64,000 nt of DNA. Source: Ramlibacter monticola (GTDB taxonomy: Bacteria > Pseudomonadota > Gammaproteobacteria > Burkholderiales > Burkholderiaceae_C). Every line of letters begins with the position of its first letter. Position 1 is the stretch's first letter. The stretch lies in contig NZ_JAEQNE010000002.1 in assembly GCF_016722785.1 (NCBI RefSeq), positions 806,001-870,000 on the forward strand, given 5' to 3'. The notes below the pieces were generated by a model that saw nothing but the letters and a program-made list of their open reading frames with translations, was not told the DNA's origin and searched no databases. Below are positions 22,688-33,466 of this stretch, in pieces. Both the position numbers and the translations under genes were made by a program.

Positions 22688-23737
22688 CTAGGGCGCGGCG
22701 CGAAGGCCCTCGGGCCGGTGGCGCAGGCTGGCCGCCGCATGCGAGAGCGCGAACGCCAGCGCGTGGCCGGTCGAGTCCATCAGGCAGGCCTTGCGCCACA
22801 GCTGCACGCCCCTGCGCGGGGCACCGCCCTTGCGCATCTCCGCGGCGCCGGGCAGAACCCAACGCTCCATGAACCGACGGGTCGATGCGGGCAGCGCCGC
22901 TGTCATCGCGGCCTGCACGTCGGCGTTGGCAAACTCCGGAAACATGCGGCAGGCGAGGCTCAGTGCGCCGTACAACGCACGCGCCGTGTGCCACTCGCGA
23001 GCGCGCTCGGCCGCGGCCATCGCCATGCCTGTCCGACGCGCGAGCAGCAGCCAGAGATCGACGTAGCGGATCAGGCGCACGTCGAACTGGTCGATCCCCA
23101 TGGAGAGCGTGTGGTAGACCAGCGCATCGACGTCGTCGAGGCGCAGCACGCGGCGGCCCTCGATCTCGAGCGGCACGGCGCGTTGCCACAAGCCCTCATA
23201 GTCGACACGATTTCGGGGACGCTGGATGAAGGACTGGTGCACCTCGACGAGGATGCGCCCGTGGAAAAACACCCGCTCGTGGTGGGCGGGGTCCCTGGAA
23301 GCGCCGAACGAAGGCTGGGCGCGCATTCCGGCGGCCAGCAGGCGCTCGCACACGGCATCCATGCGATCCACGGGAACCAGGATGTCGATGTCCTGCATCG
23401 GGCGCAGGACGGCGTCCGGATAGAGTCGCCGTGCGTAGTCCGATCCCTTGATCAACATCACCGGCTCGCCGGCCAGGGCGTCACAGACAGCAATGGCTGC
23501 TTCGCGAAACCAACTTGCCCGAACCTGCAGGATGCGCTCCCAACCCCTTGCGGACTCCCTCGCGCTGCGCACCGCAGGTGGAAGATCGGACGCCGCGAAC
23601 AGCAGCGGCAGCAAGCCGGAGGAGGAGCAGCGCTCCACCAGCAGCGCCGCGCCCGCTGCACTGACGGCGGGCCAAGCCTCGCCCGTGACCAGCCCGCAGA
23701 CCGATGGCCAGAAAGAACGCGGAAGCAAAAGGGACAT
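22688..23737 (-). CDS. Nucleotidyltransferase-family protein of the RiPP-associated type
   Basis: 349 residues, resembling the putative nucleotidyltransferase family often found with PqqD and HPr-kinase-like genes in peptide clusters. Key region: PVMLIKGSDYARRLYPD (Lys97, Ser99) followed by RPMQDIDILVP with Asp116 and Asp118, matching the G-S ... D-x-D metal/NTP core; then a helical C-terminus rich in His, Trp and Arg (VDALVYHTLSMGIDQFDVRL). It probably transfers a nucleotidyl group or related moiety to a protein or peptide, but no member near here is characterised. It is divergent from the precursor-like gene across a 186-base shared promoter region. Confidence 0.8.
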   Translation of the reverse strand: MSLLLPRSFWPSVCGLVTGEAWPAVSAAGAALLVERCSSSGLLPLLFAASDLPPAVRSARESARGWERILQVRASWFREAAIAVCDALAGEPVMLIKGSDYARRLYPDAVLRPMQDIDILVPVDRMDAVCERLLAAGMRAQPSFGASRDPAHHERVFFHGRILVEVHQSFIQRPRNRVDYEGLWQRAVPLEIEGRRVLRLDDVDALVYHTLSMGIDQFDVRLIRYVDLWLLLARRTGMAMAAAERAREWHTARALYGALSLACRMFPEFANADVQAAMTAALPASTRRFMERWVLPGAAEMRKGGAPRRGVQLWRKACLMDSTGHALAFALSHAAASLRHRPEGLRAAP

Positions 23738-23923
23738 CGCTACGGGATCCTGGTGAGAGCCGACCCGCAGGGCGGCGGGGTCTTTGCAGCCAATCGCTTA
23801 ACAAGGACGAACGGGCCTTGCGTCCCCTTGACGGGCCCCCGGTGGTCGCAGTACCGTCCCGGCCGTTTCTGCCCTTTCGTCCTATCCTAGGACAAGCGTC
23901 GGGCAGCAAGCAAGGAGGACCCA
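23738..23923. promoter_or_regulatory. Divergent promoter region of the peptide cluster
   Basis: 186 bases between the nucleotidyltransferase gene and the PqqD-fusion gene. It holds an inverted repeat GTCCTA-TCC-TAGGAC (23879-23893) that may be an operator, and a strong ribosome site AAGGAGG about 8 bases before the ATG at 23924. A TTGACG hexamer occurs at 23828-23833, but I cannot assign a matching -10 with confidence. Confidence 0.4.
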
Positions 23924-24385
23924 ATGAGGACTGTCTTTGTTGCGACCTCGGGAGTGGAAACCGCCCCGCTCGCCAATGGCTCGGTGGTCTACAACCTGAA
24001 GACCACCAAGTTCATCATGCTGAACCCATCGGCGAATCTGGTTTGGAGCTCATTGGCGAAGCCACACTCCGAGGATGACCTGGTCGACCTGGTCTGCGAA
24101 CGCTACGAGAGCGTCGATGCTCCGGCCGCCCGGCAGGCGGTGCAATACACGCTGCGCGAATTGCAGAAGCTCGAACTCGTCGCGAGCCGCGAAGGCAGCA
24201 CGGAGACCGGTGATTCGCGTCCCGCCGCAACCCGCGCCGGCACCTCCGATCCGGAGGATGGTTTCGCGGCGCCGTCCGTCAAGGTCCTCGACGAGGAGGA
24301 TCTCCTGAAGGTGTTCCAGATCACGGCCGCCGAGATCAGCGTGGCATCGTGCTGGTGGGGCGCCTGCTCGGTCGGTTGTCCGTAA
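23924..24385 (+). CDS. PqqD-like domain fused to a Cys/Trp-rich tail; candidate RiPP precursor
   Basis: 153 residues. Residues ~1-88 form a PqqD-like recognition domain: ANGSVVYNLKTTKFIMLNPS, NLVWSSLAKPHSEDDLVDLV, then a two-helix stretch ending LQKLELV. Residues ~90-115 are a Ser/Thr/Glu/Pro-rich linker. Residues 118-139 (SVKVLDEEDLLKVFQIT...) look like an amphipathic leader helix, and the protein ends SCWWGACSVGCP (142-153) with Cys143, Cys148, Cys152 and Trp144-Trp145. PqqD domains bind leader peptides of modified peptides; here the domain and a core-like tail are one chain. Strong RBS, first gene of the rightward operon. Precursor status is inference; it could be a chaperone with a structural tail. 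Confidence 0.75.
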   Translation: MRTVFVATSGVETAPLANGSVVYNLKTTKFIMLNPSANLVWSSLAKPHSEDDLVDLVCERYESVDAPAARQAVQYTLRELQKLELVASREGSTETGDSRPAATRAGTSDPEDGFAAPSVKVLDEEDLLKVFQITAAEISVASCWWGACSVGCP

Positions 24386-31602: not shown

Positions 31603-33248
31603 CGCGCCCGCCGGGCGAATTCGTGCACCCGGGCCAGGTTGACCAGGAGGAACAGCGGGATCTCCTCCGGAGCGGCGTCGCCGCGCTCGAAAAGGCGGTC
31701 GTAGTCGACATCGGGAAGGCGCATCCGCGAGCTCCTGATGGTCTCCAGGCAACTTGCCGCATCCACGCGCTGGCCGACCACTTCCATGTAGTCGGATTTC
31801 GGGCGCTCGCGGATCGAATCGGGAAGGTCGCTCCCCAACGCCTCCATCATCAGCGACTTGGCCCGCACGGGATCCGCCTTCGCCGCGCAGGGCAGCGAGA
31901 TCATGAAGTCCACCAGTTCGCGGTCGGCGAAAGGATGGCGCAGGTCGATGCCATGGCGTGCCGCCTCGATTTCCTTGTGCTCGAACGAAATCACGGCGGC
32001 CGGCAACAGCGGATGGACCTGGCGGACCTTCCAGCGCTGTGAAGGCCAGGACCAGCGATCGATGTCCTGCGCGCGGATCCGCGTGGAGAGATCTCCGAGA
32101 AAGTACGTCGCGACGCTCTCCATGTAGGTCGGGCGACGGGCGTACCGGCCACGCCGCAAGCCCGGTGGCGCGAGATCCGAGAGCAGGCCGTGCACCGCCC
32201 GGCGGATCCCGTAGCTGCGCGACAGCGCAATGAGCCGCTCGATTTCCAGGCCGAGCAGCAGCTTTCCCCAGGCCCCGCCCGAGGGGCCGAGCACGCCGTC
32301 ACCATCGTGGCCATCGAGGGCGACCCGGACACCGCTCGCGCGAAGATGCGATTGCACCGGTTCGTCGATGCCGAACGGCAGCCAGCTGTACGGCACGCAG
32401 TGGACGTCGAGCTCCGCCTCGATGTCCCAGGGGCCGAGCTCACCGGGCACGCAATGCAGCGGTACGTCCAGCGCGGACGCCACCGCCTGCGCGTAGCGTG
32501 TTTCCTGCGTGCGAGGCAAGGGCGCGAACTCGACATGGACGAGGTACGGCTTGTCCGCCGTCGCCGGAATGCCGGCCGCAACCGCAGCCGAGTCCTGGCC
32601 TCCGCTCAGGACGACCGCGCTGCCGGGCGCGTAGCAACGCGCCACGGCGCTACGGAACCGCTCGCGCAACTCCCCGACCGCGTCGGCCCGATCGCCACCA
32701 AAGGTGCCCAGGCGCCGCGCCGGGTCCCAGTACCGCAGGGTTTTGATGCGCAGTTCACCGTCGATCTCGAGAGTGCAGCCGGGAAGCACTCGCCGGATGC
32801 CAGCCCATCCCGTTTCCTCATCGATCGGAGCAAACCCCGCGCGCGCAGTCAGGGCCGACAGATGCGGAGCGTCGGGCTCGATGCCCAACAGCGCGTGGAC
32901 CTCGCTTGCGAGCCACACGGCCCCTTTCGCGACCCGATAGAAGAGCGGCGCGAGACCCATCGGATCGCGGGTCGCGCGCAGCACCGCGCCATCCCAGTGG
33001 AGGGAGGCGAAGCGGCTGCTGCCCGACTGCAGCACGGCCAGCGGATCCGCGGCCCCGCCGTGAACGAGCACGAGGGAACCGGACGTGCAATCGACAGTCG
33101 GCCCGTCGCCCGGATCACAGAGCGCGGCGATTTCCAGCCCTTGCTTGCGATACCGCATCCCGCTGCCACGGTGCCAGCGCAGGCGTTCGGCGGCGCGTTC
33201 GAGCCGCCCGCCGTGATCCCCGAGGCAAGCGACGAAGCCGCCTCTCAT
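31599..33248 (-). CDS. Asparagine-synthetase-like ATP-dependent synthetase lacking the glutaminase Cys
   Basis: 549 residues from ATG 33248, fixed by an ATGA overlap with the small upstream frame. N-terminal domain (1-200) has the AsnB glutamine-amidotransferase fold pattern ([42 protein letters not shown]) but begins MRGGFVA, so the required Cys2 nucleophile is absent. The C-terminal domain has the PPi loop SGGQDS (215-220) and [12 protein letters not shown]. Such AsnB relatives act as macrolactam synthetases in lasso-peptide pathways by adenylating a side-chain carboxylate. The tail peptide has no Asp/Glu, so the acceptor is unclear. Confidence 0.85.
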
Positions 33249-33466
33249 CGCGGGCAAAGGTGGAATCGTCCGCCCGCGACGCGGATGCTGCCTTCGACGA
33301 CGTGCTGGTCGCGCTTCACCGGCGTTTCCGCGCACGCGTCACGGCGATGCTCGCAAAAGCCGCTGCGCCAGCCGTCGACGCGGGGCTCGACCGCTTCGAC
33401 GGTGTCGACGAGGGAGAACCAGGGGCTGGCATGAACGGGAAGCTGCGGGTTCAGGTCGGAAGACAG
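33245..33466 (-). CDS. Small Cys-containing reading frame coupled to the synthetase gene
   Basis: About 73 residues ending in a TGA that overlaps the synthetase ATG (ATGA at 33248-33245), with strongly GC-ending codons over its length, both signs of real coding. It includes [39 protein letters not shown] and ends RFHLCPR (three Cys). No ATG, GTG or TTG lies between the upstream in-frame TGA (33478) and the well-coded part; a CTG at 33466 is the first plausible start. Upstream in the same frame is a short frame starting at an ATG (MSNHCVFPW, then five Ser from a trinucleotide repeat) that ends at that TGA, so the gene could be longer and interrupted. Function unknown; no homologue recognised. 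Confidence 0.4.

Follow-up and report, generated by a model that had tools for sequence, protein, structure and literature searches.

A probable RiPP-type cluster in Ramlibacter monticola with DUF455 proteins and a conserved Cys-Trp-Trp core

Linear polyphosphorylated peptides (LPP), described in Bacillota in 2026, are ribosomally synthesized and post-translationally modified peptides (RiPPs) whose core gene set comprises an archaeal-type signal peptidase, a RiPP recognition element (RRE), an HprK-like kinase, a nucleotidyltransferase (NTP transferase) and an MsbA-like transporter. According to the main text of PMC13381572, on which all our statements about LPP rest, the RRE presents the leader (motif YxxPxVLxHQxIxFETxxS) for cleavage after ...F-E-T by the peptidase, in which Ser, His and Asp are essential; the kinase phosphorylates S3 of the core; cores are highly variable; and LPPs are restricted to Bacillota. 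The other close relatives are paeninodin-type lasso peptide clusters, and the lasso leader motif YxxP is named in PMC12710340. Here we describe eleven compact genes at positions 22688-33335 of a 64,000-nucleotide stretch of the Ramlibacter monticola genome (the window), found by open-reading-frame reading and family scans. They probably form a RiPP-type cluster in which a new ferritin-like oxidation module is added to a chassis of lasso/LPP type.

The window holds all five LPP gene types, the kinase and peptidase by matches below their family cut-offs, and its precursor carries the F/YxxP part of the LPP leader motif. It differs from LPP clusters as described in adding three DUF455 proteins, a helical protein (hel), an asparagine-synthetase-like protein and a methyltransferase, in lacking the HQxIxFETxxS part of the leader, in its near-fixed CWWxxC core, in the fusion of RRE and precursor, and in a host outside Bacillota. 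The LPP core set has no macrolactam cyclase; the window has the asparagine-synthetase-like gene, which is not clearly a lasso cyclase (82 of 525 bits against the lasso cyclase model); the word "ferritin" is absent from the main text of the LPP paper. With paeninodin-type lasso clusters the locus shares a lasso-type RRE and YxxP motif, an HprK-like kinase, an NTP transferase, an asparagine-synthetase-like enzyme and an exporter, but it has no B2 protease, no acidic core residue for a macrolactam and another leader end. An earlier reading of the sequence alone had likened the locus to the paeninodin-type clusters; the shared genes support this, although paeninodin is not the sole closest relative, since LPP has five gene types in common with it. 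MNIO (DUF692) systems such as methanobactin, according to abstracts on them, also involve iron-dependent modification of Cys-containing cores and a partner protein (in MbnBC). DUF692, a family other than DUF455, was not matched by the ten cluster proteins scanned with Pfam. RiPP logic and chassis are known; what is new relative to LPP and lasso clusters is the DUF455 module and the CWW core.

The fused precursor and its core

The tail of the PqqD protein had been proposed as a Cys/Trp core for oxidative modification, provided that homologues keep it. A query with the PqqD-tail protein against 5.8 billion proteins returned 69 proteins, including the window's own, and every one of them has the tail. 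E137, A141, C143, W144, W145 and the final Pro are invariant (69/69), and C148 is present in 68 of 69. Averaged over columns, the most common residue reaches a frequency of 0.97 in FQxTAAEIS and 0.88 in the nine residues that follow, compared with 0.66 for the PqqD domain and 0.29 for the linker; the tail is thus better conserved than the PqqD domain. S139, a Ser in 66 of the 69, could be where a phosphate is attached. The fused relatives span 44-81% identity and yet have nearly the same core, so the product may be a single conserved molecule. All 69 fused precursors run on to the final Pro, and 64 have three Cys from CWW onward.

Stand-alone precursors exist as well. Starting from the separate precursor of G188, another genome of this order (described below), a search returned 22 more, of 53-55 amino acids, and all 23 stop exactly at the Cys of CWWxxC. 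Throughout the 92 known precursors, [SA]-x-A stands ahead of xCWW and neither Asp nor Glu occurs at or after the residue preceding CWW. The precursors bear the lasso-type Y/FxxP leader motif, and the predicted model of the PqqD domain is nearest to lasso RRE-leader structures.

A conserved end behind a variable linker of low model confidence gives the tail the appearance of a leader-core peptide. Since the tail is kept in all fused homologues and its counterpart is a separate gene of 55 codons in G188, with 22 more stand-alone precursors, we read the tail as the precursor peptide and the window gene as an RRE-precursor fusion. Judged by sequence, the locus has what identifies a RiPP cluster, namely an encoded precursor with leader and conserved core and an RRE alongside it. 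The invariance of C143, W144 and W145 strengthens the proposal of a Cys/Trp core, while its oxidation is still inferred.

Gene inventory, second locus and distribution

The sequence-only reading had listed eleven adjacent genes with hallmarks of peptide modification, among them three paralogous DUF455 genes. All are present, and the three DUF455 proteins score well above the Pfam cut-off of 34 bits.

22688..23737, minus strand: NTP_transf_5 (PF14907) nucleotidyltransferase; Pfam 115 bits, cut-off 31
23924..24385, plus strand: PqqD-type RRE fused to precursor peptide, 153 amino acids; PqqD Pfam 48 bits
24263..24385, plus strand: putative precursor part of the same gene, leader FxxP...LLKVFQIT, core ...SCWWGACSVGCP; CWW codons from 24350
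24402..25223, plus strand: DUF455 protein d1, with the four-Glu/two-His set E55, E87, H90, E136, E169, H172; Pfam 86 bits
25237..26331, plus strand: HPr-kinase-like protein, P-loop GAAQAGKST; Hpr_kinase_C E 9e-7, 29 bits, below the cut-off of 33.3
26316..26873, plus strand: helical protein hel, 185 amino acids, a ferritin-like bundle without ExxH pairs according to its predicted model
26882..27595, plus strand: DUF455 protein d2; Pfam 102 bits, placed by tree
27573..28361, plus strand: DUF455 protein d3, orthologue of d3 in G188 by tree; Pfam 87 bits
28342..28941, plus strand: S26-like archaeal-type signal peptidase; NCBIfam sigpep_I_arch E 2.5e-6, 27 bits, below the cut-off of 51.85
28969..30732, minus strand: MsbA/PglK-type ABC exporter with P-loop and LSGGQ; NCBIfam PglK E 1.6e-78 and MsbA E 6e-77, both below the equivalog cut-offs
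30739..31602, minus strand: S-adenosylmethionine (SAM)-dependent methyltransferase; Pfam Methyltransf_23 35 bits, TIGR04290 66 bits against a cut-off of 300
31599..33335, minus strand: asparagine-synthetase-like protein, SGGQDS motif; Pfam Asn_synthase 84 bits

Gaps from the PqqD gene to the exporter range from -23 to +27 bases, and the seven plus-strand genes are spaced -23 to +16 bases apart (window G+C 70%; host genome 6.14 Mb). The right end, formerly put at 33466, lies at 33335 or 33248 depending on the start chosen for the asparagine-synthetase-like gene; from neither start is the second residue Cys, and the top Protein Data Bank (PDB) match is beta-lactam synthetase (E 2.9e-9). The kinase-like protein also matches HprK_rel_A (E 4e-7), below its cut-off. 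Candidate triad residues S45, H83 and D103 or D109 are common to the peptidases of the window and G188; the latter matches sigpep_I_arch at E 2.6e-7, likewise below the cut-off, and the window peptidase has no useful PDB sequence match. The lasso B2 protease and radical SAM enzymes had been reported missing, and this agrees with our scans: PF13471 has no match in the window genome or in G188, and the Pfam scan, which covered ten of the eleven proteins, gave no match to a radical SAM family, the exporter being scanned with NCBIfam only. Two frames were noted outside the cluster. One, at window 22089-22454 (minus strand, 121 amino acids), lies between the YraN-like gene and the cluster and has no Pfam match at E ≤ 0.01. 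The other is a second, weaker NTP_transf_5 match (G000:C12:874733-875104, in the window genome) about 4.7 kb past the right edge of the window, whose neighbours, by eye, are not RiPP-like in the frames read.

In G188 the PqqD frame ends and a new gene of 55 codons follows (L031:8127-8294), encoding ...YERPSLRMMNQDEVLEAFQMTATEISAAGCWWNTC. After it, arranged as in the window, come d1 (57% identical to that of the window), hel (52%), d3 (58%) and the peptidase (41%), and the single NTP transferase match of that genome (G188:C1:304560-305189) lies upstream, about 8 kb from the precursor gene. The two genomes have in common the RRE, the precursor, DUF455 proteins, hel and the peptidase, plus the NTP transferase within about 8 kb. 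The window adds the kinase, the asparagine-synthetase-like protein, the methyltransferase, the exporter and a third DUF455 gene.

Upstream of the G188 precursor (L031:2094-7731) stand genes for NHL repeats, two methyltransferase matches of which one is clear and one weak, JmjC, an APH-family kinase, a weak sulfotransferase match and a flavoprotein, which together with the precursor and the NTP transferase possibly make up one larger tailoring cluster. The flavoprotein gene (L031:7135-7731, opposite strand) is the point of likeness to the peptide-cysteine decarboxylases of EpiD/MrsD type. Its structure matches are 7cfu (2e-26), 6jls (8e-21), MrsD (8e-17), CoaBC (3e-14), EpiD (5e-12) and CypD (4e-4), CoaBC thus also being a good match; among NCBIfam models CoaBC scores above CypD, neither over its cut-off. 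As the stand-alone precursor has its Cys at the extreme C-terminus, the gene content fits a decarboxylation of that residue. No such flavoprotein is encoded among the eleven window genes, and the fused precursors end in Pro instead of Cys.

Both clusters lie near what is apparently the same neighbourhood (window 20763-22050 and 33619-34431; L031:13482-17160), whose genes we take to be RsmI-like, YraN-like, SIS-domain and BON-like, the window SIS match coming from a search. The window cluster sits between the YraN-like and SIS genes and that of G188 a few kb beside the neighbourhood, which may be an integration hot spot.

Whether DUF455 and PqqD genes occur together elsewhere had been set as a check on the cluster. 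They do in G188, and beyond it we used a proxy for linkage, a PqqD-tail entry and a hel relative whose contigs, themselves unread, have exactly equal size. By this proxy 10 of 34 PqqD-tail entries (those with a longest contig of 2500 bases or more, not counting that of the window) share a size with a hel contig, against about 0.2 expected: jittered sizes gave a mean of 0.21 coincidences and a maximum of 4 in 20,000 trials. The test used 119 of the 120 listed hel entries, P0193 being left out (4119, which equals no PqqD entry). Stand-alone precursors have no contig size in common with those 119 entries, which speaks neither for nor against linkage there; their branch probably falls outside the hel list, because listed hel matches are at least 59% identical to the window's hel and that of G188 is 52%.

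The tail, hel and cluster-type d1 seem rare, although the frequencies are approximate since the draws are samples and most genomes were scored for part of the candidates. In an order draw centred on G188, hel was found in 1 of 399 genomes, G188 itself, which also bears the precursor; another draw gave 1 of 229. The PqqD-tail profile matched 6 of 399 genomes in an order draw made up largely of these genomes, the tail itself occurring only in the window genome and G188. The tail model matched 1 of 28 genomes in the family of G188, 1 of 60 in the genus and 2 of 398 in the phylum draw, one of these (G717) being a CWW-like stretch without a leader, judged a chance match. Matches to d1 occur in 44 of 61 relatives at E ≤ 1e-3, the best outside the window genome (3.9e-14) being of housekeeping type, and in 1 of 399 genomes of the family draw at E ≤ 1e-20.

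Wider scans yielded candidates that we rejected. A protein-pattern scan of genome contigs gave 55 stretches and viral contigs 37, none confirmed as a relative. A degenerate DNA pattern gave one match (L035), an open frame without the leader motif and with no cluster-protein relative in its 8 kb, judged to be chance. One of the two protein patterns and the DNA pattern required Ala-Ala-Glu; stand-alone precursors mostly have Ala-Thr-Glu, so these scans could hardly detect that branch. Among plasmids the sole match was a DUF455 protein of Geobacillus with 27% identity to d1; on this plasmid (pGS18, NC_010420.1, L041; E 5e-18 to d1) the gene adjoins a transposase gene, and a protein with a nucleotidyltransferase domain and a methyltransferase lie farther off. 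For the other genomes matching the PqqD profile (G167, G165, G038, G293), the FQxTAA/AAEI motif was not found in L032-L034, the search not extending to L030 of G293, and the stretches searched hold no relatives of d1-d3 (the G167 contig is 7.45 kb with the match at one end, that of G293 2.8 kb). L033 (G038:C65) and L034 (G165:C103) combine PqqD-like and HprK-like matches, L033 also NTP transferase and ABC matches, and probably represent other lasso- or LPP-like clusters of this order.

The DUF455 proteins and hel

The five cluster DUF455 proteins of the window and G188 retain the four-Glu/two-His diiron set (E, ExxH, E, ExxH) and form one clade; the ligands are retained in all 26 aligned DUF455 proteins. 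Within the clade, d2 is 53% identical to d1, and d3 pairs with G188 d3 at 100/100 support. A fourth DUF455 gene elsewhere in the window genome scores 320 bits, against 86-103 for cluster copies, and is taken as the housekeeping type. Cluster proteins share with that type the Pfam family and the diiron ligands, and differ in forming a separate clade on a long branch and in Glu60, present in 5 of 5 cluster proteins and 1 of 21 others.

The sequence-only reading had counted hel as a fourth ligand-rich helical protein. By prediction it is, more specifically, ferritin-like: the model (predicted local distance difference test, pLDDT, 93) is that of a ferritin-like helical bundle, and most of the 50 structures shown as resembling it are Dps, bacterioferritin, toluene monooxygenase chain B and aldehyde-deformylating oxygenase. 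The family has 312 relatives, with no Pfam domain in the 120 listed. Any relation of hel to the DUF455 proteins would rest on its predicted fold and on the Pfam resemblance of DUF455 to ferritins.

In the literature searched, judged by titles and abstract openings and with subscription papers mostly outside it, we found no link between DUF455 and RiPPs, nor PqqD, ferritin-like or diiron systems of such kind with RiPPs, in line with the earlier claim that no described RiPP class is built on DUF455 proteins.

Proposed function and competing explanations

From the precursor, the RRE, the gene linkage in two genomes, the ligand residues and the predicted folds we infer metal binding, a reaction, a cut site, an order of steps and export as follows. 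Through the F/YxxP motif the PqqD domain would hold the leader to which it is covalently joined, and it would present S-C-W-W-x-x-C(-x-x-G-C-P) as the core at the C-terminus. The DUF455 proteins, aided by hel, would bind a pair of iron atoms and oxidise the invariant Cys/Trp residues with O2, the outcome being hydroxylation, a Cys-Trp or Trp-Trp cross-link, or backbone oxidation. With two or three proteins bearing ligands of O2-activating type next to an invariant Cys-Trp-Trp, such an oxidation is the most likely reaction. In the window branch the kinase, the NTP transferase, the asparagine-synthetase-like enzyme and the methyltransferase would attach further groups. The signal peptidase would remove the leader, and the MsbA-like pump would export the product. 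By analogy with LPP as described, where T stands at -1, the cut could fall after FQ[IMV]T (FQxT\AAEIS, the backslash marking the bond).

The fused protein may instead keep its tail and have a structural or regulatory role, its CWWxxC end serving as a site for metal or heme, with the DUF455 proteins as iron-handling partners. For a secreted RiPP such an invariant core is unusual and would suit a binding site, and other ferritin-like proteins store iron; yet G188 encodes a separate peptide of leader-like organisation, the window encodes RiPP-type tailoring enzymes along with an exporter and a protease of signal-peptidase type, and this peptidase family cuts RRE-bound leaders in LPP according to PMC13381572, so that we regard an unreleased tail as unlikely. 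A plain LPP or paeninodin-type phosphopeptide cluster, with the DUF455 proteins as bystanders or iron suppliers, would account for the five shared gene types and for the conserved Ser139. Against it, G188 shares the RRE, the precursor, two DUF455 proteins, hel and the peptidase, with the NTP transferase nearby, and no HprK relative occurs in the stretch read; the DUF455 module is thus the constant part and the kinase is not. LPP cores as described are moreover highly variable where this one is nearly fixed, and we consider this explanation quite improbable.

A lasso macrolactam needs Asp or Glu at core position 7-9. A lasso cluster with an unusual cyclase would explain the lasso-type RRE, the leader motif and the asparagine-synthetase-like gene, but the acidic residue is missing from all 92 precursors, neither genome has a B2 protease match, the cyclase model is matched weakly and the gene has no relative in the G188 stretch; we give this possibility very little credence.

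We thus return to a RiPP cluster with a ferritin-like oxidation module, against which several points weigh. Full genomic context was read in two genomes only. In the PqqD model, confidence is low for the tail (block pLDDT 39-76). A tblastn search (E ≤ 0.01) of 40 kb surrounding the G188 cluster found no relatives of the window HprK, asparagine synthetase, methyltransferase or ABC proteins, which may therefore be dispensable or have nothing to do with the system. Ferritin-like diiron enzymes have two ExxH motifs, whereas in hel any ExxH occurs in only 4 of 93 aligned rows (from the 120 listed relatives), and its profile compares with that of DUF455 at a non-significant probability of 1.1%. We know of no characterised DUF455 protein and no reaction assigned to one, and the proposed O2-dependent step is read from ligand residues. 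Signal peptidases classically cut after small-x-A (S/A-x-A). A cut at S/A-x-A\xCWW suits such an enzyme just as well as the LPP-like site, leaving two candidate sites.

Taking one step further, it is an even call whether this is a new RiPP class in which a small ferritin-like ensemble, DUF455 proteins plus hel without ExxH pairs, acts on an invariant CWW core, perhaps with one conserved product and, in the stand-alone branch, an oxidatively decarboxylated C-terminal Cys. If so, the product might be, for example, a redox cofactor derived from Cys/Trp, a metal carrier or a signal, and not an antibiotic that has diversified, and classical ferritin-like diiron proteins would join the RiPP toolbox. 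The locus also places a natural RRE-precursor fusion beside its two-gene counterpart, and it gives DUF455 a defined candidate peptide substrate, which makes the function of this family directly testable.

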